NCBI GenBank assembly: GCA_021809425.1
Contig: JAKBAA010000024.1
Coordinates: 1-43,274 of the forward strand
Direction: 5' to 3'
DNA from: Actinomycetes bacterium
GTDB taxonomy: Bacteria; Actinomycetota; Acidimicrobiia; Acidimicrobiales; Bog-793
Length of the DNA stretch: 43,274 bases
Below, piece after piece: positions 1 to 13,575 of the stretch. Below the pieces are notes generated by a model. It was not told the origin of the DNA. It saw nothing but the letters and a program-made list of their open reading frames with translations, and searched no databases. The translations under genes and the position numbers were made by a program. Every line of letters starts with the position of its first letter. The stretch's first letter is position 1.

Positions 1-1
1 G

Positions 2-136
2 CCGGCGCTCGGAGAGCACAGCGAGGCGATCCTTCGGGGCGCCGGCTACGCAGCCGACGAGGTCGCCGCCCTCGTCGATGCGGGTGTGGTCGTCAGCGCG
101 GCTCGAGATGGCGGTGGGCGCACCGCCTCCTGCTAG
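2..136 (+). CDS. CoA-transferase family III (CaiB/BaiF), C-terminal fragment
   Basis: The window opens inside a reading frame of 44 codons ending in TAG. The visible end, starting PALGEHSEAIL and running through GYAADEVAALVDAGVV, matches the usual C-terminus of class III CoA-transferases, where a GEH(T/S)-x-x-(I/V)L motif precedes a short helix and a GVV ending. These enzymes move CoA between acyl-CoA and free acids. Next to an aromatic-CoA pathway it could activate an aromatic or dicarboxylic acid, but the substrate is not visible. It converges on the CofG/CofH gene with 48 bases between. A weak stem (GCTCC 140-144, GGAGC 153-157) lies between them without a T-run. Confidence 0.7.
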   Translation, partial: PALGEHSEAILRGAGYAADEVAALVDAGVVVSAARDGGGRTASC

Positions 137-184
137 GCCGCTCCGGGCGTCGGGAGCCGCACGGGCCGCAGGAGCCGGGGGGCC

Positions 185-2476
185 TCAGGGCGCCGTCGCG
201 ACCGGACCGAGCCGTTCGTAGAGGGTGGTCCGCTGGACGACCGGTCGCCCGAGCGGTTCGATCGCCGCCCGCAGCTCGCCTGGCGTGAGGTTGCCATGGG
301 TGACCGCGCCGGCGGCGGCGGCGATCTGCTCGTCCATGAGGGTCCCGCCGGCGTCGTTGCAGCCGGCCCGAAGGAGGCGGCGGAGGCCCTCGAGCCCCGT
401 CTTCACCCAGCTCGCCTGGATGTTGTCGAGGAGGCCGAAGAAGGCGATCCGTGCGACGGCGTGCAGGAGGAGGACCTCGCGGAAGGTGGGCCCCCGCCGT
501 GCCCGGCCCTCGAGGAAGAGTGGCGTCGCCATGTGGACGAAGGGCAGCGGGACGAGCTCGGTGAAGCCACCCGTCTCCGCCTGCAGCTGGCGGGTCAAGC
601 CGAGGTGGTGAGCCCAGTGCCGCGGGTGCTCGACCGAGCCGAACATGATGGTGGCCGTGGACCGCAGGCCGACGCGGTGGGCGACGCGGTGCACCTCGAG
701 CCACTCGTCCGTACGGAGCTTGTCGGGGCAGAGCACCGACCGTACGTCGTCGTCGAGGATCTCGGCAGCCGTGCCGGGGATGCTGCCGAGCCCTGACGCC
801 CGGAGCCGGCGGAGGAACGTCTCGAGGTCCTCGCCGAGGCGGCGTGCGCCCTCGGAGATCTCGAAGGCGGAGAACCCGTGGACGTGGATGCGCTCCGAGC
901 CGGCCCGGACCGCCTGGAGCAGCTCGAGGTAGCGCTCACCGCCGAAGCCGGGCGGGATGCCCCCCTGGAGGCAGACCTCGGTCGCCCCGGCCTGGTCTGC
1001 CTCGGCGACGCGACGGCTGATCTCCTCGAGCGGCAGGAGGTAGGGCGCTTCGCGCAGGTGGAGCGACCGTGGTCCCTTGGAGAAGGCGCAGAAGCGGCAC
1101 TTGAAGCTGCACTGGTTGGTGAAGTTGACGTTGCGGTTGACCACGAAGGTCACGGCCTCACCCACCGCGCGGGCTCGAAGCTCGTCGGCGGTCTCGATCA
1201 CCTCCTGCACCTCGTGGCCGCGGGCCGCGAACAGGGTGACGAGCCCGTCCTCCTCGAGGGTGGCACCGGAGCGGGCGGCCTCGAGGAGCTCGGCGACCGC
1301 GCCGGCCGGCGAGCGCGCAGGGAGAGGCCCTGGCGGGCGGCGGCGGCGGGCGACCGGCTCGGCGGGCGGCGGCGCCGGGCCACCGGCCACCCAGGGGGAG
1401 TCCCGCGCGAGGCCTTCGGCGTCCGCGGCAGCGAGGACCCTCGGGCGCAGCGCGGCGTCGAGCCAGCGGTCGGGGGCGTTGGCCCATTCGGGGTGGAGCG
1501 GCAGGCGAGGGGCGAGGACGTAGCCCCGCGCCTCGAGGTCTCGCTCGAGGTCGGAGGGACCCGGCCCGTGGCGGGGCGAGGTGCTCGCCGGAGCGAGCGG
1601 CCCGAGATCGTCGGCACCACCGAGCAGCGGGAGATCGAGCCCGAGGGGCGATCGGGGAGGCGCCTCGACGTGCACCTCGAGCGGAAGGAGCAGGCGGGCC
1701 ACGGCGAGGGTCCAGAGCGCGTCGTCCAGCCTCGACCGGCCGCCCTCGACGGTTGCCACACCGACCGCCTGGACCTGGCCGTGCCGGTCATGGCTCGCCA
1801 CGATGGCGCGCAGCGTGGCGAGCTGCGCTTCCCGCTCGCCGACCGGTGGGACCGGCAGGAGGATGCTGAGCGGGATGCCGGACCGGCCGGCGGCGTCGAG
1901 GGACGCGGCCAGTGCCGGTCCCCGGTCGCGACCCGACCGGACGCGGCGCGAGCCCGTCGGCCTGTCGAGGTGGTCGCCGGGGAGGAGCACGACGCCGCAG
2001 CTCACCGCGCGAAGCGTTGCGAGCGTCGCCTCCTCGAGGCGGGAGAGCTCGAGCCGGACCGGGAGGCCGGTCTCGTCGAGGATACGGCGGGCCGCACGGA
2101 CGAGGAGCTCGAGCCCGGGGTCGGGACCGTCCGGATCGCCGAGGGTGGGCACCGGGCGACCGGGGCGCTCGCCGAGGCCGACCAGCACCTCGGCGAGCGC
2201 CCCGGGCTCCGCCGCTCGGGCATGTGCAAGGAGGGCGTCGAGGGAGGGGATCGCCGGATCGGCGAGCGCCCGGCGATCGGTGCGGCGCGCGGTCGGGTCG
2301 TTCGGCCGGCCGGGGGGCGAGACGGCGAGGCGGGCGGCTGCCGAGTAGGTCAGTCGCCGTCCGTGCCGCTCGTCCCGTCGCCGGCCGGCGCGGGCGCAGA
2401 GCATGCCGGTCGAGGTGGTGAGCAGGGTGGCGTCGGTGGGTGGCCCGTCCTCGGTGGGGCCCGCCGAGGTGGGCAT
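185..2476 (-). CDS. CofG-CofH fusion (FO-synthase type) with degenerate CofG half and intact CofH half
   Basis: This 763-residue protein has the two-domain plan of actinobacterial FO synthase (FbiC). Residues about 440-763 are CofH: the radical-SAM motif CSFKCRFC (Cys456, Cys460, Cys463) is intact, and the tail keeps the family pattern around FVHMATPLF and NIQASWVKTG. CofH joins a tyrosine-derived 4-hydroxybenzyl group to 5-amino-6-ribitylaminouracil. Residues about 42-375 align with CofG (LTYS, a GLGERP segment, APPRSPL, RPRVLAAADAEGLARDSPW), but the CX3CX2C motif expected just after LTYS is absent. That stretch reads SAAARLAVSPPGRPNDPTAR and has no cysteine. CofG-type closure of the deazaflavin ring is therefore unlikely from this protein. 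The ATG at 2476 was chosen because it follows the FrhB-like stop by one base (TGAGATG), so translation is probably coupled; longer in-frame starts would lie inside that gene. Confidence 0.85.
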   Translation of the reverse strand: MPTSAGPTEDGPPTDATLLTTSTGMLCARAGRRRDERHGRRLTYSAAARLAVSPPGRPNDPTARRTDRRALADPAIPSLDALLAHARAAEPGALAEVLVGLGERPGRPVPTLGDPDGPDPGLELLVRAARRILDETGLPVRLELSRLEEATLATLRAVSCGVVLLPGDHLDRPTGSRRVRSGRDRGPALAASLDAAGRSGIPLSILLPVPPVGEREAQLATLRAIVASHDRHGQVQAVGVATVEGGRSRLDDALWTLAVARLLLPLEVHVEAPPRSPLGLDLPLLGGADDLGPLAPASTSPRHGPGPSDLERDLEARGYVLAPRLPLHPEWANAPDRWLDAALRPRVLAAADAEGLARDSPWVAGGPAPPPAEPVARRRRPPGPLPARSPAGAVAELLEAARSGATLEEDGLVTLFAARGHEVQEVIETADELRARAVGEAVTFVVNRNVNFTNQCSFKCRFCAFSKGPRSLHLREAPYLLPLEEISRRVAEADQAGATEVCLQGGIPPGFGGERYLELLQAVRAGSERIHVHGFSAFEISEGARRLGEDLETFLRRLRASGLGSIPGTAAEILDDDVRSVLCPDKLRTDEWLEVHRVAHRVGLRSTATIMFGSVEHPRHWAHHLGLTRQLQAETGGFTELVPLPFVHMATPLFLEGRARRGPTFREVLLLHAVARIAFFGLLDNIQASWVKTGLEGLRRLLRAGCNDAGGTLMDEQIAAAAGAVTHGNLTPGELRAAIEPLGRPVVQRTTLYERLGPVATAP

Positions 2477-2477
2477 C

Positions 2478-3635
2478 TCAGGGGCGGTGGCCACGGGCGC
2501 GTTGCTTCGCGGCGAGCCGCTCGAGGAGGGCGGTCGCCTCCGGCAGCTCGCCCGGCGGCCGCTGCTCGAGGACCTCGTCCTCGAGCATGGCCTCCACCCA
2601 TTCGGCGGCGGCGGGGGTCCGGACGACGGCCATGGTCCACCCGTCGAGGCCGACGCCGCCAGCCGAGAGGTCCGCGAGCTCGCCGGAGAAGTCGGTGCAG
2701 GAGCCGCACTGGGCGCGCACCGTTGGTCGGACCTCGCGGAGGGGGATCTCGACGACGTTGCCGTCTGCCACACGGGCTGCGGAGCCGGCGACGCGGCCCG
2801 CGGCGATGTGACTGAGGTCCTGGTCGGTCGAGACGAGGAGCTTGCCCTTGACGTTCACCCTGGTGACGCGCGTGAGGTCCAGCCCGAAGCGCACCTCGAG
2901 CAGGTCATGGAGGAAGGCCGTCTCCTCGAAGGTCTCGCTGCACATGAGGGCGATGGAAAGGACGACGGGACGGAATCGCTTGAGCCCGCTGACCTGCCCC
3001 TTCACGAGCCCGGCGACCTGGCAGGGCAGGCCGACGAAGGCGAGGCGCATCGTCGGGGCAGCCTCGTGGAGCATGAGGAGGCTACGCGAGTAGGTGTAGC
3101 GGGAGCCGGCGCTCGAAAGGACCTCGTCGGGCTCGGTCACGATGACCGGCAGGTTGTGCCAGGGGCGATCGGGGTCGGGCCGGGTGACGATGGCGCCGTC
3201 GATGCGACCGGTCCGCATCGCCCAGGCGAGCGCCGCCGTCACGAGCCCGCCGTCCTGTCCGGCGCTGGCGACGGCGCGCAGGACTCGCCGATCGAGCTCG
3301 TTGCCGAGGGCCTCGTCCGGTCGGCGCGTGCGGCCGAAGCGATGCAGCTCGAGCGACTCGGGGTCCGGCCGGAAGCGGGAGCAGACCCTCGTGCAGGCGT
3401 CGCAGCCGGCATCGCCGAAGCGGCAGCCGTCCGGGCCGGACGCCTCGTCGGTCTGATAGGGGCGGGTCTCCCCGGAGGCGTAGGCGAGCACCTTTCGTGG
3501 GCAGGCCACCACGCAGGCGCCACAGCCGGCGCAGACGTCGGTGCCGGCGACCTCCCGGAAGAGGTCGGACCAGCTGGGCTTCGGTGCCGACTGCTCGGGC
3601 ACTGCCGGGTCCCCGACGACCGAGTCGACCCTCAT
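2478..3635 (-). CDS. FrhB-family coenzyme F420 oxidoreductase subunit with two Fe-S motifs
   Basis: This 385-residue protein belongs to the F420 hydrogenase/dehydrogenase beta-subunit family. The N-terminus has a ferredoxin-type motif CAGCGACVVACP (Cys35, 38, 41, 45) and a second cluster motif with Cys71, 78, 81 and 85. The body shows the family signatures AFVGLPCQVAGL, a SIALMCSETF strand, and CGSCTDFSGELADLSAGGVG. FrhB-type proteins bind FAD and exchange a hydride with F420, passing electrons to Fe-S clusters. It sits in the ferredoxin-hcrCAB operon, 31 bases after hcrB, and is directly followed by the CofH fusion. I infer that it links F420H2 to the ferredoxin or to the reductase. The family also includes glutamate-synthase-like and assimilatory-sulfite-reductase subunits, so the exact partner is open. 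ATG start with a purine-rich GGGGGCGGAG stretch just ahead. Confidence 0.85.
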   Translation of the reverse strand: MRVDSVVGDPAVPEQSAPKPSWSDLFREVAGTDVCAGCGACVVACPRKVLAYASGETRPYQTDEASGPDGCRFGDAGCDACTRVCSRFRPDPESLELHRFGRTRRPDEALGNELDRRVLRAVASAGQDGGLVTAALAWAMRTGRIDGAIVTRPDPDRPWHNLPVIVTEPDEVLSSAGSRYTYSRSLLMLHEAAPTMRLAFVGLPCQVAGLVKGQVSGLKRFRPVVLSIALMCSETFEETAFLHDLLEVRFGLDLTRVTRVNVKGKLLVSTDQDLSHIAAGRVAGSAARVADGNVVEIPLREVRPTVRAQCGSCTDFSGELADLSAGGVGLDGWTMAVVRTPAAAEWVEAMLEDEVLEQRPPGELPEATALLERLAAKQRARGHRP

Positions 3636-3666
3636 CTCCGCCCCCTTCCCTGCCAGGCAGCCGCCG

Positions 3667-4653
3667 TCATGCTCGCCCCGCCGCCTGGCGCACGGCTCGC
3701 TCGACGATCACCTTCACCATCCGCTTGCGCCATGGGAAGCTGAGGTCGGTGTTGTCCAGCGGCTTCGCAAGGCGCGCCGCCTCGGTGGCCGCCCGGTCGA
3801 TGGCGTCGTCGTCGAGCTCGCCGCCGACCAGCAGGTCGGCAGCGCTCGGGACCTCGAGCGGATGCGACGCCACTGCCCCGAGGACGATGCGGCAGCCGTC
3901 GACGACCGGTCCGTCGAGGTGCAGCGCGACGGCGGCCGAGGCGACCGGGAAGTCCATCGAGGCCCTGCGACGGAGCTTCTGGTACGCCGAGCGCCACCCC
4001 TCGCTCGCGGGCAGGCGGAGCGCGGTGAGGACCTCGGTGGCGGCGAGGGCCAGGTAGGCCGCGCCGTCGTCCGCATAGAGGGAGGCCACCGGAACCTCGC
4101 GCATGCCGTCGGGCCCGGCGAGGAGGGCGGTGGCGCCGAGGGCGATCGCCATCGGCGCCGTGTCCGACGAGGAGACCGCCCAGCAGCGCGGGCTCGAGGC
4201 GGCGACCCGGCACACCTCGCCTCCGGCCTTCCGGCAGAAGCCGATGGCGGAACGCCACTCCTCGGTCATGTCGTAGTAGTTGCAGCGGGTGTCGACGCAG
4301 AGGTTGCCGCCGACGGTGCCGGCATTGCGAAGCGCCGGGGTCGAGACGACCCTGACGGCCTCGAGGTACCCGGGCTGCTGCTCGCGCAGGGCCGGATGGC
4401 GAAGCGCCTGGCTCAAGGTGGTGCCGGCACCGAGGGTGGCGGCGCCGGAGGGCGACACCTCGAGCTGTCGCAGGGCGTCGAGGTGACCGATGGCGACGAG
4501 CACCTCGGGGGCCAGCTGGCGCCGCTTCATCTTGGGGAGGAGATCGGTCCCGCCGGCGACGAGCTTGGCCCGCCCGCCGTGGTCGGCGAGCATCTGGGTC
4601 GCCTCGACGGGCGACCCCGGTCGAAGGTAGCTAAAGACTGGCAGTCGCAGCAT
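3667..4653 (-). CDS. hcrB: 4-hydroxybenzoyl-CoA reductase, beta (FAD) subunit
   Basis: The 328-residue protein is the FAD-binding medium subunit of the xanthine-oxidase family (AGGTDLLP at 33-40, TVGGNLC at 113-119). It carries the insertion that distinguishes 4-hydroxybenzoyl-CoA reductase from other family members. Within residues 119-160, Cys124, Cys140, Cys148 and Cys157 have spacing C-x15-C-x7-C-x8-C, which as I recall matches the [4Fe-4S] ligands of the Thauera enzyme. The extra cluster carries low-potential electrons from ferredoxin toward the molybdenum site, the reverse of normal flow in this family. HcrABC removes the phenolic OH from 4-hydroxybenzoyl-CoA, giving benzoyl-CoA. The start overlaps the hcrA end by 23 bases. 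Confidence 0.92.
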   Translation of the reverse strand: MLRLPVFSYLRPGSPVEATQMLADHGGRAKLVAGGTDLLPKMKRRQLAPEVLVAIGHLDALRQLEVSPSGAATLGAGTTLSQALRHPALREQQPGYLEAVRVVSTPALRNAGTVGGNLCVDTRCNYYDMTEEWRSAIGFCRKAGGEVCRVAASSPRCWAVSSSDTAPMAIALGATALLAGPDGMREVPVASLYADDGAAYLALAATEVLTALRLPASEGWRSAYQKLRRRASMDFPVASAAVALHLDGPVVDGCRIVLGAVASHPLEVPSAADLLVGGELDDDAIDRAATEAARLAKPLDNTDLSFPWRKRMVKVIVERAVRQAAGRA

Positions 4654-7045
4654 CGGGCGAGACCTTCGTGCAGGGGGGATAAGGGATGTCCGGGAACCGG
4701 CGCGGGCCGACGCGTCCCTCGCCGCCCTTGGCTCGCTGGTCGAGGGCCCGAAGGACCTTGTCGGGCGTCACGGGCACCTCGTCGATCCAGACCCCGAGGG
4801 CGTCGTGGATCGCCGAGACGACGGCAGGGACCACGGGGAGCATCGGTCCCTGCCCGACCTCCTTCGCGCCATAGGGGCCTTCTGGATCGATCGTCTCGAC
4901 GAGGATCGTCTCGATCGCTGGCATGTCGAGGGCGAGCGGGGTCTTGTACTCGAGCACCGAGGGGTGGTGGTGCAGGCCCTTCCGGTAGGACTGCTCCTCC
5001 ATGAGGGCCTCGCCGAGCGCCATGTAGACGCTCCCGTCGACCTGGCCCCGGACGAGGACGGGGTTGAGGATGCGCCCGATGTCATGGGCCACGAAGACCT
5101 TGTTGACCCGCACCTCGCCGGTGAGGGGATCTGCGTCGAGGTCGACGACGGCGGCGGTGAACGTGAAGGCCGGGCTGGGCCCGACCCCGGAGCCCCGGAA
5201 TCGACCGGAGATGCCCTTCGGCGGCGCATAGCTGCCGCTCGTGCTGATCGTTCCACGAGCCTCCTCGGCGAGCGCCACCGCCTCCTCGAAGGAGACCTCG
5301 CCGATGCCGCCGTCACCCACGCGCACGGCGGCGCCGGGCTGGCCGCCCCGGCTGGCGACGGCGTCGACGAGGATGGCCCGCATCTTGCGGGCCGCGTCGA
5401 TCGCTGCGTTGCCTGCCATGAACGTGACGCGCGACGAGTAGCTGCCGAGGTCGACGGGGGTGAGGCCGGTGTCGGCGGTGACGACGCGGACGTCGCCCCG
5501 GGCGAGGCCGAGCTCCTCGGCGACGAGGGTGGCGAGGACGGTGTCCGAGCCCTGGCCGATGTCGGTGGCGCCGCAGAACACGGTGACCCCGCCCCGGTCG
5601 ACCTTGAGGTTGACCTCGCTGTGGGGCATGCGGTTGAGGTACATCGGGAACCCGGCACCGCACAGGTAGGCGGAGACGGCGAAGCCCTGCCCGTGCCCGA
5701 CCGGGCGCGGGCGGCGGCGGAAGGCGGAGGCAGCGACGACCTTCTCGGTGACCTCCTCGAGCCCCGAGGAGGTGATGCGCAGGCCGTTGACGGTCCTCGT
5801 GTAGGGCTTCACGAAGTTCTGCTGGCGGAGCACGACCGGGTCGATGGCGAGGTCGTCGGCGAGCTTGTCGAGGTGGATCTCGAGGCCGAAGCGGGGCTGG
5901 GGGACGCCGTGACCGCGCTTTGGCCCGCAGGTCGCCTTGTTGGTGAAGACGCGAGCGCCCTCGAAGCGGTAGGCAGGGATCGCGTAGGTCGCCGTCTGGA
6001 GCGCGCCGGTGTAGTGGGTGGTCGCCACGCCGAGCGAGGCGTAGGCCCCTCCGTCAAGGGCCGTGCGGAAGTGCATCGCCGTGATCTTCCCGTCGCGGGT
6101 CGCGCCGGTCCGCACCCACATGAGCACCGGATGGCGGCCGCGATGGTTGTAGAACACCTCCTCCCTCGTGAGGGTGCACTTGACGGGGCGACCGGTGACC
6201 ATGGCGAGCTTGGCGACCGCGACCTCGTGGGCGAACGGGTCCACCTTGCCACCGAACCCTCCGCCGTGGGGCGTGGCCACGACCCGGACGTGGCCCATCG
6301 GCAGCTCGAGCACCTTCGAGAGGACGCGGTGGACGTTGTGAGGTGCCTGGGTGGAGGACCACAAGGTGAGCTGGTCGCCGGCGAAGACCGCGGTCGCAGA
6401 GTGCTCCTCCATGGCGAGGTGGTTGCTCCCCTCGTAGAAGAGGACGTCCTCGCGCACGTGGTCGGCGAGTGCGAATCCCTCGTCGACGTCGCCGAACTCA
6501 AGGGCGACGAAGCGGTGGATGTTCCCGATCTCGGTGTCCCCGTGGATCGGCTCGTCGACGGGAACCTCGAGGGCCTCCTCGATGCTCCCGACGGTCGCGA
6601 GCACCTCGTAGTCCACCTCGATCAGCTTGCAGGCCGCCCGTGCCGTGGGCTCGTCCCGAGCGGCAACGGCTGCGACGGGGTCGCCCACGTAGCGGACCTT
6701 GGCCGAGGCGAGAACCTCCTCGTCCTGGCTGATCGGGAGCGGACCGAAGCGGATGGGGAGGTCCTCGCTCGTGAGCACGGCGGTGACGCCCGGCAAGGAC
6801 CGGGCGGCCGTCGCGTCGACCGAGCGGATCCGGGCGTGAGGATGGGGGCTTCGGAGCAGCACGCAGGCGAGCATGCCGGGTAGCTCGATGTCGTCGGCGT
6901 AGATGGTGGCGCCGGTCACCTTCTGCACGCCGTCGACGCGTGGCAGGGCCTTGCCGACGACGCGGAAGGCTGCCCCAGGCTCGTCGTCGCCACCGGGGCC
7001 GGCGCCGAGACGCCGGCCCGCCCACGCCTCCGGCCCGGCGCTCAT
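4631..7045 (-). CDS. hcrA: 4-hydroxybenzoyl-CoA reductase, alpha (molybdopterin) subunit
   Basis: This 804-residue large subunit of the xanthine-oxidase family begins with an aldehyde oxidase/xanthine dehydrogenase a/b hammerhead region (RVDGVQKVTGATIYADDI). The molybdopterin-binding domain follows, with VVATPHGGGFGGK, GATDIGQGSDTVLATLVAEE and, near the end, EGPYGAKEVGQG, whose Glu is the expected active-site carboxylate. The length is normal or slightly long for HcrA. It overlaps hcrC by four bases (ATGA) and hcrB by 23 bases, so the three subunits are translationally coupled. Because HcrB in the same operon carries the diagnostic cluster, 4-hydroxybenzoyl-CoA reductase is preferred over CO dehydrogenase, nicotinate or xanthine dehydrogenase. 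Confidence 0.9.
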   Translation of the reverse strand: MSAGPEAWAGRRLGAGPGGDDEPGAAFRVVGKALPRVDGVQKVTGATIYADDIELPGMLACVLLRSPHPHARIRSVDATAARSLPGVTAVLTSEDLPIRFGPLPISQDEEVLASAKVRYVGDPVAAVAARDEPTARAACKLIEVDYEVLATVGSIEEALEVPVDEPIHGDTEIGNIHRFVALEFGDVDEGFALADHVREDVLFYEGSNHLAMEEHSATAVFAGDQLTLWSSTQAPHNVHRVLSKVLELPMGHVRVVATPHGGGFGGKVDPFAHEVAVAKLAMVTGRPVKCTLTREEVFYNHRGRHPVLMWVRTGATRDGKITAMHFRTALDGGAYASLGVATTHYTGALQTATYAIPAYRFEGARVFTNKATCGPKRGHGVPQPRFGLEIHLDKLADDLAIDPVVLRQQNFVKPYTRTVNGLRITSSGLEEVTEKVVAASAFRRRPRPVGHGQGFAVSAYLCGAGFPMYLNRMPHSEVNLKVDRGGVTVFCGATDIGQGSDTVLATLVAEELGLARGDVRVVTADTGLTPVDLGSYSSRVTFMAGNAAIDAARKMRAILVDAVASRGGQPGAAVRVGDGGIGEVSFEEAVALAEEARGTISTSGSYAPPKGISGRFRGSGVGPSPAFTFTAAVVDLDADPLTGEVRVNKVFVAHDIGRILNPVLVRGQVDGSVYMALGEALMEEQSYRKGLHHHPSVLEYKTPLALDMPAIETILVETIDPEGPYGAKEVGQGPMLPVVPAVVSAIHDALGVWIDEVPVTPDKVLRALDQRAKGGEGRVGPRRFPDIPYPPCTKVSPDAATASL

Positions 7046-7533
7046 CGCTCGCCTCGAAGGCGGGCCGCGGCGACCCCGACGGCGTCGACGATGCTCGCGT
7101 ACCCGGTGCAGCGACAGACGTTGCCGGAGAGGGCGTCACGAATCTCGCCCTCGGTCGGCTCGTCGTTCTCGTCGAGGAGCGCCTTTGCCGACATCAGCAT
7201 GCCGGCCGTGCAGTAGCCGCACTGGGAGGCGCCGAGCTCCATGAAGGCGTCCTGGAGGGGGTGCAGGTCCGGCCCCGACGCGAGGCCCTCCACGGTCACG
7301 ATGGCGGCGCCCTCGACCTCGGTCGCGAGGAGCAGGCAGGAGAGCTTCTGGTCGCCGTCGACGAGGACGGTGCAGGCGCCGCACTCGCCGAGCTCGCAGC
7401 CGTGCTTGGTCCCGGTCAGGCGGAGGCGCTCCCGGAGCACCTCGAGGAGCGTCTCGTTCTCGGCGACGATCGTCTCGCGGGGCTCGCCATTGACCGAGAG
7501 GCGCACGACCCTCGAGGATCCCGGCGGGCTCAT
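7042..7533 (-). CDS. hcrC: 4-hydroxybenzoyl-CoA reductase, gamma (2x[2Fe-2S]) subunit
   Basis: The 163-residue protein is the small iron-sulfur subunit of the xanthine-oxidase family. The plant-type [2Fe-2S] motif is in GCELGECGACTVLVDG, with a fourth ligand in KLSC. The second, helical cluster uses CGYC (SQCGYCTAGM) and CRC (GNVCRCTGY). It passes electrons between the FAD/[4Fe-4S] subunit and molybdenum. The ATG at 7533 was chosen over upstream in-frame codons because it overlaps the ferredoxin stop as ATGA and gives the normal family length; its own stop overlaps the hcrA start in the same way. The order ferredoxin-hcrC-hcrA-hcrB suggests that the ferredoxin is the direct donor. Confidence 0.92.
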   Translation of the reverse strand: MSPPGSSRVVRLSVNGEPRETIVAENETLLEVLRERLRLTGTKHGCELGECGACTVLVDGDQKLSCLLLATEVEGAAIVTVEGLASGPDLHPLQDAFMELGASQCGYCTAGMLMSAKALLDENDEPTEGEIRDALSGNVCRCTGYASIVDAVGVAAARLRGER

Positions 7534-7817
7534 GCGCGTTCCGTCCAGGCACGAACGAGCGCGCGGGCAGCGGCGGCGTCTTCGAAATGGACCCGGTTGA
7601 TGTGGGTGAAGTCCGCCCATTCGGCGGGCACCTCGGCCTGCGGGTGGATGGCCTCGACCGGGCACACCTCGACACAGGCTGCGCAGTCGATGCAGGTGAC
7701 CGGGTCGATGAACAGCATCTCGTCCTCGGGCTCGGCGGTGATGCAGTCGACCGGACAGACGTCCACGCACGAGCGGTCCTGGGTGCCGATGCACGTGGCA
7801 CCGATGACGTAGGCCAA
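7530..7817 (-). CDS. 7Fe ferredoxin (FdxA type)
   Basis: This 95-residue ferredoxin carries cysteines at 9, 17, 21, 25 and 42, 45, 48, 52. The first group (C-x7-C-x3-C-P) and the second (CIDCAACVEVCP) have the spacing of the Azotobacter/mycobacterial [3Fe-4S][4Fe-4S] ferredoxins rather than clostridial 8Fe ones. The start is TTG: GCGAGGTGCCACC precedes it and no ATG or GTG lies close by in frame, and the resulting N-terminus MAYVIG resembles MTYVI of FdxA. As first gene of the hcr operon it is the likely electron donor for the 4-hydroxybenzoyl-CoA reductase, and perhaps for the benzoyl-CoA reductase encoded across the divergent promoter region. Confidence 0.9.
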   Translation of the reverse strand: MAYVIGATCIGTQDRSCVDVCPVDCITAEPEDEMLFIDPVTCIDCAACVEVCPVEAIHPQAEVPAEWADFTHINRVHFEDAAAARALVRAWTERA

Positions 7818-7929
7818 GGTGGCACCTCGCTTCCTGTGGCTCGGGTCCCTCGATCGGCGAAGCCCGACCGGGAACGGTCCGCTCGAGCCAGCCCCAAAGT
7901 AGAGTGCTGCGCTAGACGTGGTAAGGCGA

Positions 7930-7959
7930 ACTATATTGAACTGACGTTCGGTAGGTCAA
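7930..7959 (-). promoter_or_regulatory. Sigma70-type promoter of the fdx-hcrCAB-frhB-cofH operon
   Basis: Read on the minus strand, TTGACC (7959-7954) is followed after 18 bases by TATAGT (7935-7930). It is the best -35/-10 pair in the window and lies in a short AT-rich patch of the 228-base gap between the ferredoxin and hemerythrin genes. Transcription would start near 7923, leaving a leader of about 105 bases. The rest of the gap (to 8045) holds no open frame; no clear plus-strand promoter was seen. Confidence 0.6.
7938..7949. promoter_or_regulatory. Inverted repeat GAAC-N4-GTTC, candidate operator
   Basis: A perfect 4-base inverted repeat with a 4-base centre (GAACTGACGTTC) lies inside the spacer between the -35 and -10 boxes of the hcr operon promoter. 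A protein bound here would block RNA polymerase. The TetR-family gene starting 540 bases away on the other strand is the obvious candidate, but the repeat is short and its use is inferred. Confidence 0.35.
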
Positions 7960-8045
7960 GATGCGAGTCAGCCGATCCGGCGCTGGCCCGGGTGTCACGG
8001 GCGTGGACCGGCCGTCGCGTGCAGCGTGCAGCGGGGGAGGATGCG

Positions 8046-8492
8046 ATGACAGCGACCGCAGGGGCGAGCCGTGCGACGATCTCGGTGCTCGCCTCGGAGC
8101 ACGTTGCGGTGCGGGCGCTGCTCGAGGAGCTCGCTCGGGCGGAGGGCCGCGGCGACCGGGAGGGCGCGTCGGCTGTGCTGTCGGCCTCGGGCGAGCTCCT
8201 GGGGGCAGGCCTCGACGCCCACATCGGGCTCGAGGACGACGTCCTCTTCCCGGCGATCGCCGAGGAGCTCGGCGCGGCGATGGTCGACTCGTTCCGCGCC
8301 GAGCACCGGGAGATCGAGCGGCTGCGGGACGCGGTCGTCGTGGCCGCCCGTCGTGGCGACCTGGACGGCGCGCCGCTCGAGGAGCTGTGCGAGCGACTCG
8401 GCGGTCACATGCAGCGCGAGGACGAGCTCCTCTTCCCGGCGGCGATCGGTCTCCTCGAGGACCGGGGAGAAGGGGAGGGAGCGGCGTCGTGA
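8046..8492 (+). CDS. Hemerythrin HHE-domain protein
   Basis: The 148-residue protein is a four-helix hemerythrin-like domain. Candidate di-iron ligands are His19 (SEHVAVR), His59 and Glu63 (DAHIGLEDD), His87 (AEHREIE), and His121 and Glu125 (GGHMQREDE), with the usual spacing. Such proteins bind O2, NO or iron, or act as oxygen sensors. The start ATG at 8046 follows GGGGGAGG by five bases; a nearer ATG at 8041 hits a stop after two codons. The stop overlaps the GTG of the TetR gene, so the two are co-translated. Between two operons for extremely oxygen-sensitive enzymes, a role in oxygen sensing or scavenging is plausible but unproven. Confidence 0.88.
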   Translation: MTATAGASRATISVLASEHVAVRALLEELARAEGRGDREGASAVLSASGELLGAGLDAHIGLEDDVLFPAIAEELGAAMVDSFRAEHREIERLRDAVVVAARRGDLDGAPLEELCERLGGHMQREDELLFPAAIGLLEDRGEGEGAAS

Positions 8493-9178
8493 GCGAGCGC
8501 GGCCACACCAGTGGGCGGCGCCCCGGCCGTCCCCGCAATACCGAGCCGAGCCCCGAGTACGTGGCGCGCATGAACCAGATCGTCGAGACGGCAGCGAAGG
8601 TGTTCCAGGCGAAGGGGTACGACGCCGGATCCCTCGACGACGTCGCCGTGGCGCTCGACCTGCGCAAGGCGAGCCTCTACTACTACGTCCGCTCGAAGGC
8701 CGAGCTGCTCTACCGCGTCTTCGATCGGGCGATCACGACGGCGCTCGACAATGTGCAGTGCTGCCAGGAGATCGACGACCCCCGGGAGCGCCTCGCCGCG
8801 CTGATCCGTCTCCAGGCCGTCTCCGTGGCCCTCTCGCCCGGCTACTTCACCGTGTTCTTCGACCAGCGCCCCCGACTCTCCCCCGACTACGAGGCGGACA
8901 TCCGATCGAAGGAGCGGCGGTACCTCCGGGTCTTCGCGGAGGCAGTCGACGCGGCCGTGGCGGCGGGCGTGCTGCCGGCGGTCGACCCTCGCTTCGGGGC
9001 GCAAGCCATCCTCGGGATGACGAGCTGGGTCTACAAGTGGTTCGACGGCGAGCGGGACGACCCAGAAGCCTTCGCGAGGACCTGCGCCGAGCTGCTGCTC
9101 GGTGGCGGGGGGGTCGCAGCGCCTGCCGGCGTCGCCTCGAGCGGGAGCCCGGCCCGAAAGGCCCCTGCGTCGGCGTGA
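8489..9178 (+). CDS. TetR/AcrR-family transcriptional regulator
   Basis: The 229-residue protein begins with a basic arm (SGRRPGRPRN). A helix-turn-helix domain follows at about residues 28-75 (AAKVFQAKGYDAGSLDDVA, then LRKASLYYYVRSKAELL). The C-terminal part is an all-helical ligand-binding domain similar in style to the TetR_C-type regulators of fatty-acyl-CoA and sterol catabolism. The GTG start was chosen because it overlaps the hemerythrin stop (GTGA) and follows AGGGGAGGGA by eight bases. It lies between the divergent hcr and bzd promoters, so I infer that it represses one or both in response to an aromatic acyl-CoA. It is unrelated to BzdR or BadR, which belong to other regulator families. 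Confidence 0.88.
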   Translation: MSERGHTSGRRPGRPRNTEPSPEYVARMNQIVETAAKVFQAKGYDAGSLDDVAVALDLRKASLYYYVRSKAELLYRVFDRAITTALDNVQCCQEIDDPRERLAALIRLQAVSVALSPGYFTVFFDQRPRLSPDYEADIRSKERRYLRVFAEAVDAAVAAGVLPAVDPRFGAQAILGMTSWVYKWFDGERDDPEAFARTCAELLLGGGGVAAPAGVASSGSPARKAPASA

Positions 9179-9185
9179 CCTCGGG

Positions 9186-9207
9186 CGGGCGGCGGTGCGG
9201 CCGCCCG
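9186..9207 (+). terminator. GC-rich hairpin after the TetR gene
   Basis: CGGGCGGC (9186-9193) pairs perfectly with GCCGCCCG (9200-9207) across a six-base loop, starting seven bases after the TetR stop codon. There is no U-tract. Strong stems without U-runs are common behind actinobacterial genes, so it may separate the TetR transcript from the bzd operon. Confidence 0.5.
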
Positions 9208-9237
9208 TGGTCGCTCCCCCGACCGTGCGAGTGCCTC

Positions 9238-9266
9238 TTGCTCTACGTAGATCGGCTCGCTACACT
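9238..9266 (+). promoter_or_regulatory. Promoter of the benzoyl-CoA reductase operon
   Basis: TTGCTC (9238-9243), a 17-base spacer and TACACT (9261-9266) form a plausible sigma70 promoter in the only AT-richer stretch between the TetR gene and bzdN. A second possible -10 box, TAGAAT (9296-9301), lies downstream without a recognisable -35. The first gene has a good ribosome-binding site, AAGGGGG (9328-9334), five bases before its ATG. Confidence 0.5.
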
Positions 9267-9272
9267 AAGCGA
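9257..9272. promoter_or_regulatory. Inverted repeat TCGCT-N6-AGCGA over the bzd -10 box
   Basis: Five-base arms TCGCT (9257-9261) and AGCGA (9268-9272) flank six bases and cover the -10 hexamer. A separate 8-base palindrome CTACGTAG (9243-9250) sits in the spacer. Either could be an operator. Neither resembles the GAAC-N4-GTTC repeat at the hcr promoter, so a shared regulator is not shown by the sequence. Confidence 0.3.
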
Positions 9273-9339
9273 CAATAAGGCGACCGGCTAGTAGGTAGAA
9301 TAGGGCAAGCCCTGGGGCCGGCGCAGCAAGGGGGTAGCC

Positions 9340-10512
9340 ATGGAACCTCGGTTGCTGGACGACTGGCAGGGTCTCGACCTCGACGGGCTGCTGCGCTACG
9401 TGCGGGAGGTCGTCGAGGACGCCGACTACCCGACGGTGCGGCGATGGCGAGCGTCGGGCGGGAAGGTCGTGGGCCACTTTCAGGTCTACTTTCCGGAGGA
9501 GATCGCGATGGCGGCCGGCCTTCTGCCGGTGAAGATCCACGGCGCGCCGATCGAGCCCCGCCAGGGTGACGCCCACTTCGGCTCGTACCTGTGCTCCATC
9601 GTGAAGACGTCGTTGGAGCTCGCCCTCTCGGGACGGCTGGAGCTCGACATGTTCGTGTCCCACCCCATCTGCGATACCGCCCGCAACCTCGCAGCGGTGT
9701 GGGGTCGAAACGTCGGGTACCCCTGCGAGGTCCTGTACCTGCCCCAGAACGCCAATTCGTCGCACAGCGCTCGCTACCTTCGTGGCGAGTACGAGCGGCT
9801 CCAGCGCGGCCTCGAGGCGATCGCAGGTCGGGAGGTGAGCGAAGCCGACCTGGTGCGGGCGATCGGCGTGTACAACGAGAACCGGGAGCTGTTGCGGCGC
9901 CTCTATGCCATCAAGCGGACGTCGCCGTGGCTGCTCGGCGTCGACGAGGCCTACGTGCTCGTCGCGCTGGGAGGGCGGATCTTCCGAGAGGAGCACAACG
10001 AGCTGCTCCGAGCGGTGATCCCGATGATCGAGCGGCGCGAGGCGACGCCGCAGGACCGGATGCGGCTGGTGCTGGAGGGTGGCTTCTGCGAGCAGCCGCC
10101 GCTCGACCTGCTCACCACGATCGCCCAGTCCTCCTACGTGGTCGACGACGACCTGCTCGTCGGCATGCGCTTCCTCACCGACGACGTGCCGCTGGAGGGG
10201 GCCGCGCTGGACAACCTGGCCGAGAGCTACCTCGAGCGGTCGACGTACACGCCGGTGCAGCACGACCTGCGAAAGCCGAAGGAGCGGATGCTTCTCGATC
10301 GGATCCGATCGGCAGGCGCCGGCGCCGCGGTCCTCTGTGCGGCGAAGATGTGCGAGCCCGGGCTCGACGAGCAGGTCCCGTACGTGAAGGCGCTCGAGGA
10401 GGAGGGGATCCCCTACTTCGTCACCGAGTTCGAGGAGTCGATGACGAGCTTCGAGAGCCTTCAGATCCAGCTCGAGACGTTCATCGAGAACGTCCTGTTC
10501 GCGGAGGCATAG
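9340..10512 (+). CDS. bzdN: Class I benzoyl-CoA reductase, BzdN/BcrC-type subunit
   Basis: The 390-residue protein belongs to the 2-hydroxyglutaryl-CoA dehydratase/benzoyl-CoA reductase catalytic-subunit family, with the typical opening YFPEEIAMAAGLLPV (residues 50-64). Cysteines that could ligate the low-potential [4Fe-4S] cluster include Cys85, Cys111, Cys129, Cys250, Cys333 and Cys338; the CEPGLDEQ motif near the end is family-typical. Its length matches BcrC/BzdN. With the next subunit it forms the catalytic half that reduces benzoyl-CoA to cyclohexa-1,5-diene-1-carboxyl-CoA. Two activases follow, which supports benzoyl-CoA (or methylbenzoyl-CoA) reductase over (R)-2-hydroxyacyl-CoA dehydratase, which normally has one. 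The ATG has a strong ribosome-binding site. Confidence 0.88.
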   Translation: MEPRLLDDWQGLDLDGLLRYVREVVEDADYPTVRRWRASGGKVVGHFQVYFPEEIAMAAGLLPVKIHGAPIEPRQGDAHFGSYLCSIVKTSLELALSGRLELDMFVSHPICDTARNLAAVWGRNVGYPCEVLYLPQNANSSHSARYLRGEYERLQRGLEAIAGREVSEADLVRAIGVYNENRELLRRLYAIKRTSPWLLGVDEAYVLVALGGRIFREEHNELLRAVIPMIERREATPQDRMRLVLEGGFCEQPPLDLLTTIAQSSYVVDDDLLVGMRFLTDDVPLEGAALDNLAESYLERSTYTPVQHDLRKPKERMLLDRIRSAGAGAAVLCAAKMCEPGLDEQVPYVKALEEEGIPYFVTEFEESMTSFESLQIQLETFIENVLFAEA

Positions 10513-10519
10513 CGCTGCG

Positions 10520-11848
10520 ATGACCACCAGCACCCCACCGCCGCCGGCTGCGACGAGCCAGACCGGCGAGCACCCATTGATCGGACGAGGGAACCGGGAA
10601 GGCAACCAGCTCTTCAAGGACTGGTACGGGCGGCTCGACGCCGCCGCCGAGCGGGGCGAGAAGGCGGCCTACGTCTTCGTGATGGGCAATGCCATCGAGC
10701 TCCTCGAGTCGTTCGACCTGCCGATCGTCCACTCGGAGATCAACGCGCTCCAGACGGCCGTCCGGCACGTCTCGGACTCCTACATCGCACAGGCCGAGGA
10801 TCACGGATACGGGACCGACGTCTGCGGCTACGTGAAGGCCGACTACGGGCTCCAGCTGCGAGGCGGCGAGCACCCGATGGGCCGGATCCCGAAGCCGGCG
10901 ATCGCCGTGTACACCGGAGCGTGCAACACCTACATCAAGTGGGCGGAGATCTGGGAGCGGATGTACGGCATCCCGATCGTCACCCTGGACGTCCCGGGCC
11001 CGCGGGCAGCCGGCGTGCTGCCCGGTCGCGGGAACCGCGACTTCGAGAACGACCTCGCCTATGTGCGGGGCCAGCTCGGCGAGCTCATCGAGCGGCTCGA
11101 GGAGCTGACCGGAAGGCGCTTCGACGTCGACCGCCTGCGCGAGGTGATGGGCCACGCGAACGAGATGACCCGAGACTGGGTGCGGGTCCTCGAGCTCAAC
11201 CGGAGCCACCCGGCCGTCTACAACGCAGTGACGGACGGCACCGTCTATCTCGGCGTGGTGAACGGCTTCCGGGGCCGACCCGAAGGGGCGCGGTACTTCC
11301 GGGAGCTCGTCGAGGAGCTGGAGCACAAGGCGGCCAACGGGATCGGCACGCCGTTCGAGGAGCAGCACCGCCTGGCCTTCGTCGGGGTGCCGTGCTACCC
11401 GATCTATCGGCGCTTCAGCGAGATGTTCACCCAGCACGGCGGGATCTTCGTGGGGTCGAGCTACACCTGGTTCGCCTCGGGAGGCTGGAGCACGGGCTTC
11501 GAGTACGACCTCGACCACCCGGTCGAGAGCCTCGCCGAGGGCCTGCTCGTCGTCGCCCGTGCCTCCATGGACGCCATGTTCCACACGGACCGGATCCTGG
11601 CGGACCTGGCAGAGCCGTTCGCCATCGACGGGATCGTGTACCACGCCATCAAGTCGTGCCGGACCGTCTCGGCCGGCCTCGCCGACAGCCGTCGCGCCGT
11701 GATGGAGCAGGCGGACGTGGGCACCTTGCTGATCGACTCGGACCACATGGATCCTCGGGTCGTCTCGGAGGCGCAGATGAAGAACCGGGTGGACGCCTTC
11801 TTCGAGGGGCTCGAGACCCGGAAGCTGCTCGCGAGGTCGGCCTCGTGA
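10520..11848 (+). CDS. bzdO: Class I benzoyl-CoA reductase, BzdO/BcrB-type subunit
   Basis: The 442-residue protein is the larger catalytic subunit of the benzoyl-CoA reductase family, close to the length of BzdO and BcrB. Conserved-looking features include [20 protein letters not shown], the region around Cys135 ([13 protein letters not shown]), [10 protein letters not shown] (Cys292) and IKSCRTVS (Cys380). It starts seven bases after bzdN stops, so the two are surely co-expressed. The heterodimer would hold the active site and a [4Fe-4S] cluster that receives ATP-driven electrons from the activase pair. Alternative substrates such as 3-methylbenzoyl-CoA cannot be excluded from sequence alone. 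Confidence 0.88.
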
Positions 11849-11939
11849 GACGGGGGCACGTGCAGGCGAGGGGGCCGGCGGCAGCGAGGCCGTCGCAGCG
11901 ACAAGAAGATCGCACGAGCGTGGCGGAGGGGTGGAGGCG

Positions 11940-12749
11940 ATGACCTACACGGCAGGGGTGGACGTCGGATCGACGCAGACGAAGGCGGTCATCATCGACG
12001 ACCTCGGGGCGATCGTGGGCCGGGCGCTCATCGACACGGGATCGAACGTGACCCTGGCGGCGGAGCGTGCCTACGGGATGGCGCTCGCCGAGGCGGGGGT
12101 CGACGAGGAGAAGGACGGGGTCGGCTACGTCGTCGGTACCGGCTACGGCCGATACCGGGTGACCTTCGGCGATGCGCAGACCACCGAGATCTCGTGTCAC
12201 GCGAGGGGGGCCGTGAAGATGTTCCCCGGGACGCGCACCGTGCTCGACATGGGGGGCCAGGACACGAAGGCCATCAAGGTGAACGAGCGTGGAGAGGTCC
12301 TCGACTTCTCGATGAACGACAAGTGCGCCGCAGGGACCGGTCGGTTCCTCGGTGCCGCCGCGACGGCCCTCGAGATCCCGCTCGACGACCTCGGCCCCAC
12401 CGCCCTCCTGTCGGATCGGCCGGTCAAGATCTCGACGACGTGCACGGTGTTCGCCGAGTCGGAGATCCTCTCCTGGCTCGGCAAGGGCAAGCGGTCGGAG
12501 GACATCCTGCTCGGCGTGCACCAGTCGGTCGGGTCACGGGCGCTCGCGCTGCTCCGGCGGGTGGGCATCGAGAGCGAGGTGACCTTCACTGGCGGGGTGG
12601 CGCGCAACGCCGGGATGGTGGAGGTGATCTCCTCGCTGCTCGGGTTCCGGGTGAACTACGGGGAGGACTCGCACTTCATGGGGGCCCTCGGGGCCGCGCT
12701 GTTTGCGAGGGACCACGTGCAGGCACGCCAGGTGCCTGCGTCGGCGTGA
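11940..12749 (+). CDS. bzdP: Class I benzoyl-CoA reductase, ATP-dependent activase subunit 1 (BzdP-type)
   Basis: This 269-residue protein has the ASKHA ATPase fold of HgdC/BcrA/BcrD activases. ATP-binding motifs are [10 protein letters not shown] (6-15), [10 protein letters not shown] (103-112) and [11 protein letters not shown]. Cys129 (NDKCAAGTG) and Cys168 ([10 protein letters not shown]) each donate to the subunit-bridging [4Fe-4S] cluster. It uses ATP hydrolysis to lower the redox potential of electrons from ferredoxin. The ATG at 11940 is preferred to an in-frame GTG at 11931 because GGAGGG (11925-11930) is well spaced for it and because the next activase starts with the same MTY. The P/Q naming follows gene order only. 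Confidence 0.88.
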
Positions 12750-12762
12750 GGAGGGGAGGGAG

Positions 12763-13575
12763 ATGACCTACTACGCAGGGGTCGACGTCGGTTCGACCTA
12801 CACGAAGGCGGTCGTCGTCGGAGACGACGGCGAGATCGCCGGGCGGGCGCTGTTGAAGACCGGCTTTCGCCTCGCCGAGGCAGCGAGCGAAGCCCTGGAG
12901 TCGGCGGCGGCGGCGGCGTCCCTGGAGCCGGGAGAGCTGGACTACGTCACGACGACCGGGTACGGCCGCTTCCAGGTGTCGTCGCGCCAGCTCAACGTCA
13001 CGGACCTGACGGCGGCGGCCTTCGGGGCACGCTTCCTCTACCCGCAGACCCGCACCGTCCTCGACGTCGGTGGGCAGACGATGAAGGTGTCCCGCGTCGA
13101 CGGCACCGGCAAGGTCGTGTCGTTCCGTCTGAACGACAAGTGCGCGGCGGGGACCGGTGCCTTCCTCGAGAAGACGGCTCGCTACATGGGGTTCGGCATC
13201 GAGGAGGTGGGCCCGCTGGCGTCCACCTCGCGGTCGGACGTCTCGATCTCGGGCGTCTGCGCCGTGTTCGCCGAGGCCGAGGTGATCAACCACCTCTCCC
13301 AGGGCATCGCGCCGGCGGACATCATGCACGGCGCGATCGCCTCGCTCGTGAGCCGCAGCGTGCAGCTCATGAAGCGGGCCAAGATGGAGCCCGAGCACAC
13401 CCTCATCGGTGGGATCCTGCGTTTCGAGACGATGGCGTCGTTGCTCAGGGAGTCCCTGGGCGGCGTGGTCAACGTGCCCTCGACCGACGACGTGCAGCAT
13501 GTCCTCGCCCTCGGTGCGGCGCTGGCCGGTCGCCAACGGCACCGATCGGTGCTGGCGGGCAGGGTGCACGCGTAG
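12763..13575 (+). CDS. bzdQ: Class I benzoyl-CoA reductase, ATP-dependent activase subunit 2 (BzdQ-type)
   Basis: This 270-residue paralogue of the preceding activase starts 13 bases after it, with GGGGAGGG as ribosome-binding site. The first ATP loop (GVDVGSTYTK) and the cluster cysteines Cys127 (NDKCAAGTG) and Cys166 (SGVCAVFAE) are kept. The second nucleotide motif is DVGGQTMK, with Thr where subunit 1 has Asp, and the adenosine motif is IGGILRFETM instead of [10 protein letters not shown]. The two activases are therefore not equivalent, as expected for a heterodimer. The length around 270 for both resembles the Bzd-type enzyme; in the Thauera type one activase (BcrA) is much longer. Confidence 0.87.
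   Translation: MTYYAGVDVGSTYTKAVVVGDDGEIAGRALLKTGFRLAEAASEALESAAAAASLEPGELDYVTTTGYGRFQVSSRQLNVTDLTAAAFGARFLYPQTRTVLDVGGQTMKVSRVDGTGKVVSFRLNDKCAAGTGAFLEKTARYMGFGIEEVGPLASTSRSDVSISGVCAVFAEAEVINHLSQGIAPADIMHGAIASLVSRSVQLMKRAKMEPEHTLIGGILRFETMASLLRESLGGVVNVPSTDDVQHVLALGAALAGRQRHRSVLAGRVHA

Follow-up and report, generated by a model that had tools for sequence, protein, structure and literature searches.

The gene at positions 185-2476 on the minus strand of the window (the whole stretch of 43,274 nucleotides analysed here) raises the question of what an FbiC-like protein may still do when one of its two radical-SAM sites is missing. An earlier note on this DNA had described a fusion with a dead CofG half and an intact CofH half, and had offered two explanations: either CofG is supplied elsewhere, or the protein makes an adduct that is not closed to FO, perhaps a deazaflavin precursor used with the adjacent FrhB protein. 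The gene, its parts and the neighbouring genes transcribed in the same direction are as follows.

185-2476, minus strand: FbiC-like paralogue of 763 amino acids (degenerate CofG-like half plus CofH half), its ATG lying 1 nt beyond the stop codon of the frhB-like gene
1382-2356, minus strand: CofG-like half, about residues 41-365, without CX3CX2C and altered at 46 of 82 otherwise invariant columns; in the predicted structure the barrel is retained and several loops, among them the former cluster loop, are unordered
2288-2311, minus strand: GRPNDPTA, which in the alignment takes the place of CRDRCGYC from canonical FbiC (lost [4Fe-4S]/SAM site)
206-1306, minus strand: CofH half, about residues 391-757, above the TIGR03551 cut-off and with the CofH_C domain
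1088-1111, minus strand: CSFKCRFC, the intact CX3CX2C of the CofH half
2478-3635, minus strand: FrhB-like F420H2 oxidoreductase subunit, the upstream neighbour
3667-4653, minus strand: 4-hydroxybenzoyl-CoA reductase beta-like subunit
4631-7045, minus strand: 4-hydroxybenzoyl-CoA reductase alpha-like subunit
7042-7530, minus strand: 4-hydroxybenzoyl-CoA reductase gamma-like (2Fe-2S) subunit, start approximate
7530-7817, minus strand: FdxA-like ferredoxin

The 763-residue protein is encoded in one open frame with 0 stops and 0 frameshifts. Using tblastn, residues 7-770 of the canonical FbiC of the same genome were aligned in a single frame over window 2458-212, and the window gene therefore contains no frameshift. 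Within this frame the region between LTYS and LGERP is 64 residues long, as in the canonical protein, yet CRDRCGYC is replaced by GRPNDPTA. Because the length is unchanged, the cluster site was most likely substituted rather than simply deleted. A six-frame scan of window 1-3700 returned no second CX3CX2C, the sole match being the CSFKCRFC of the CofH half. Both motif readings of the earlier note, a CofG motif lost after LTYS that no other frame supplies and an intact CofH motif, are thus borne out.

The loss extends well beyond the motif. Aligned with 59 other FbiCs, the CofG half departs from 46 of the 82 columns that are otherwise invariant; the next worst sequence departs from 5. It scores 49.4 bits against the TIGR03550 cut-off of 213.35 (canonical copy 401.3), and lacks both the motif and the curated score of that family. 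The window protein, the only one scored against the FbiC model NF006687, reaches 586.7 against a cut-off of 1018, and of the two radical-SAM sites of FbiC it has the C-terminal one only. We infer from the sequence that this gene could not on its own make FO in two steps.

The CofH half behaves differently under the same kind of comparison. It carries CX3CX2C, scores 446.6 bits against the TIGR03551 cut-off of 374.1 (457.7 for the intact FbiC of this genome, on contig C86) and contains the CofH_C domain PF19288 (36.6 versus a cut-off of 27). Between the window copy and the C86 copy we obtained a dN of 0.175, a dS of about 2.2 and an omega of about 0.08 for the CofH half, with omega=1 rejected (LRT 185); judged by codon comparison, purifying selection is acting on this half. 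Pairwise dS is saturated in most comparisons, and the omega of the CofG half alone is accordingly not trusted. Amino-acid identity to the C86 FbiC is 40% in the CofG half and 70% in the CofH half.

An AlphaFold2 model of the window protein has a mean pLDDT of 81.5 and keeps both barrels, in a prediction whose input alignment consists of canonical FbiCs and is biased toward the canonical fold. The unordered stretches of the N-terminal half comprise most of residues 55-74, which lie in the former cluster loop and directly behind it, as well as 103-117, 168-183 and 299-302. The best PDB match of the model is MqnE, with a TM-score of 0.84-0.85 by target length.

If CofG is to be supplied elsewhere, as the earlier note had allowed, a second and intact fbiC should be sought in the genome, and this search was successful. 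The source genome is a MAG of 179 contigs, estimated to be 93% complete, and on contig C86 it holds an FbiC with both radical-SAM motifs; a CofD/FbiA gene is also present. A FastTree phylogeny of the CofH half pairs the window copy and the C86 FbiC as sisters (local support 0.94), the branch of the window copy measuring 0.48 and that of C86 0.09, a difference of about five-fold. The tree of the CofG half gives the window copy a terminal branch of 1.84 against 0.18 for C86, about ten times as long and too long for reliable placement. Since the CofH-half tree joins the two copies with the window copy on the longer branch, the gene most likely arose by duplication inside this lineage and then changed rapidly, its CofG half most of all. 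Three relatives each carry two complete FbiC genes of different types, with identities to the window protein of about 50-54% for one type and 49-50% for the other, and with the motifs intact in both.

The most economical account of these data is a CofH-only paralogue that feeds FO synthesis in trans. A review (PMC8498797) states that the two domains of FbiC work independently of each other and that what CofH makes reaches CofG by diffusion; where the cell also has an intact FbiC, a paralogue with CofH alone can for that reason contribute to FO. The CofG half has lost its [4Fe-4S]/SAM site and most of its conserved positions; it would survive as a vestigial barrel, which has to be translated all the same for the CofH part that follows it in the fusion. 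The CofH half has most likely kept the coupling of tyrosine to 5-amino-6-ribitylaminouracil, and its product would diffuse to the CofG half of the C86 FbiC, where it would be closed to FO. The gene is the last in an operon-like run with the frhB-like and hydroxybenzoyl-CoA reductase genes; if these are co-transcribed, its position would tie extra F420 precursor to the use of a putative F420-linked pathway. That the product is closed by the normal FbiC, and that the copy thereby raises the dose of CofH, we hold to be rather probable on balance.

Some of the evidence points the other way. The CofH half has evolved about five-fold faster than its sister and has 13 of 129 invariant columns changed (next worst sequence 4), including H508P and S719A/R720A, and long-term retention is shown by no orthologue. 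Searches of 60 near relatives, 397 genomes of the order and 395 of the class (overlapping sets) returned no orthologue of this degenerate gene exceeding 55% identity. None appeared in a pattern scan of GTDB r220, a scan which finds close relatives only and which distant copies with a diverged N-terminal half could escape. All FbiC copies of relatives for which the motif region was fetched have the CofG motif.

The main rival is that the duplicate is becoming a pseudogene, the CofG half having decayed first and the CofH half now being relaxed and dispensable beside the intact FbiC. So far the gene is seen in one species only, and besides the acceleration and the private changes in its CofH half, its CofG half has drifted to GC-rich codons. 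GC at the three codon positions is 0.85/0.61/0.89 in the CofG half and 0.75/0.50/0.92 in the CofH half, a shift as expected of relaxed constraint. Against decay stands the open frame: had the CofG half drifted neutrally to the identity seen, about 4 stops would be expected, and simulated copies free of stops made up only 1-2.5%. The open frame need not imply a function of the CofG half itself, because CofH is fused downstream. The low omega and near-canonical HMM score of the CofH half also speak against decay. Of the 'isolated pseudogene' which the earlier note had set against its own reading, the isolation holds in the phylogenetic sense, while the open frame and the constrained CofH half do not fit a pseudogene. 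We regard ongoing decay as unlikely, though with a real share of the probability.

A neofunctionalised CofH, which would form its adduct from another partner or make a product that is not closed to FO and is used by a neighbouring enzyme, is improbable. Two things favour it, the gene's place in an aromatic-degradation cluster and the changes H508P, S719A and R720A at positions conserved in actinobacterial CofH, which remain unusual when archaeal CofH is considered. Most of the FbiC-invariant positions changed here vary in archaeal CofH too: N607T has T in 16 of 16 archaeal sequences, and F452, F679 and E476 are likewise found there. The histidine of GG[IL]HP, P508 in the window copy, is present in all other aligned FbiCs and in 15 of 16 archaeal CofH; the remaining one has Leu and still scores 504 bits, which means that the family does not strictly depend on this His, a conserved position rather than an established defining one. 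Moreover, the score of this half passes the equivalog cut-off of CofH and falls far short of the MqnC and MqnE cut-offs.

The neighbourhood also argues against this reading. A GTDB scan with FrhB placed it beside reductase genes at six loci in five other actinobacterial MAGs (72-76% identity, once 52%). These genomes carry ordinary FbiCs, and no fbiC-like gene lies within the fetched flanks (up to 6 kb) of their blocks. As these loci are without it, the window gene is, by gene order, an addition to a conserved FrhB/reductase block and not part of the block. A conserved link between the degenerate gene and frhB/hcr was rejected on this ground, and the degenerate orthologues that the earlier note had suggested looking for beside frhB/hcr in other genomes were absent from these blocks.

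The linkage itself deserves mention. FrhB-like and hydroxybenzoyl-CoA reductase-like genes are linked in six actinobacterial genomes including this one (window 2478-13575). Benzoyl-CoA-reductase-like subunits and activases lie divergently to the fbiC-like/frhB run, and benzoyl-CoA-reductase-like genes are linked to the FrhB-like gene in the window and at four of the other loci. This arrangement suggests that the reductases may draw their electrons from F420H2; our search turned up almost no literature on the FrhB-like/hydroxybenzoyl-CoA reductase linkage.

The boldest form of the idea, in which a changed substrate or an unclosed product of the CofH half would yield a new deazaflavin-like or hydroxybenzylated pyrimidine cofactor for F420-linked anaerobic aromatic reduction, is very improbable. 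The data can be explained without a new deazaflavin precursor, and the unclosed deazaflavin proposed for use with FrhB gained no positive evidence.

Regarding the assembly, the gene is known from one MAG contig. The only other copy is on contig C326 of a second assembly (G022), assigned to another genus of the same family, which is 99.3% identical in DNA over window 1-1368 and ends at the junction between the halves. It covers the CofH half only, which leaves a single assembly as the source for the CofG half. In the overlap we counted 3 synonymous differences, 1 non-synonymous difference and one in-frame 3-nt indel. Because G022:C326 is 99.8% identical over 14.85 kb to contig C23 of the present genome, it is probably misbinned DNA of the same species. 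Window 1-281 overlaps the end of C23, with an 18-nt repeat difference near window 155, and G022:C326 bridges both contigs. A deletion-plus-insertion origin of the motif region was tried and gave a weak signal only, an out-of-frame match to sequence downstream of the motif that 29 of 1000 shuffles equalled.

That the gene is a normal fbiC distorted by a sequencing error, a misassembly or a frameshift, to which the single MAG, the contig break and this weak match might point, is scarcely credible: the protein is homologous to FbiC in a single frame from end to end, its motif stretch is as long as the canonical one, the CofG half has lost 46 invariant positions along its extent, and there is a separate intact fbiC, at 40% and 70% amino-acid identity in the two halves. 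An error hiding the motif was rejected on the single-frame homology and the six-frame scan.

The gene is a natural separation-of-function form of FO synthase, with CofG catalytically dead, CofH apparently kept and an intact FbiC in the same cell. If its CofH is active, it would provide in vivo evidence that the intermediate is shared between proteins, would indicate that selection can act on CofH dose separately, and would offer a ready-made CofH-only construct for mechanistic work. As a lineage-specific duplicate the gene is of modest general interest, a local variant and not a new pathway.

With the bifunctional actinobacterial FbiC, the CofG-CofH fusion that acts as FO synthase, the window protein shares the two-half architecture, the length and the in-frame homology; it differs in a CofG half without CX3CX2C and without most of the conserved positions, and in the open-access literature searched we found no description of an FbiC with a dead CofG half. 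With CofH, 5-amino-6-(D-ribitylamino)uracil--L-tyrosine 4-hydroxyphenyl transferase, it shares CX3CX2C, CofH_C and a score passing TIGR03551, whereas its own CofH half is fused behind a vestigial CofG half and has the unusual H508P and S719A/R720A. The nearest parallel in gene dosage is found in methanogens, where five genomes each hold two CofH and one CofG above the cut-offs. CofH in excess of CofG therefore occurs naturally and is not unusual; the second CofH copies of methanogens resemble the window case in that CofH outnumbers CofG in one genome, and differ from it in being stand-alone genes.
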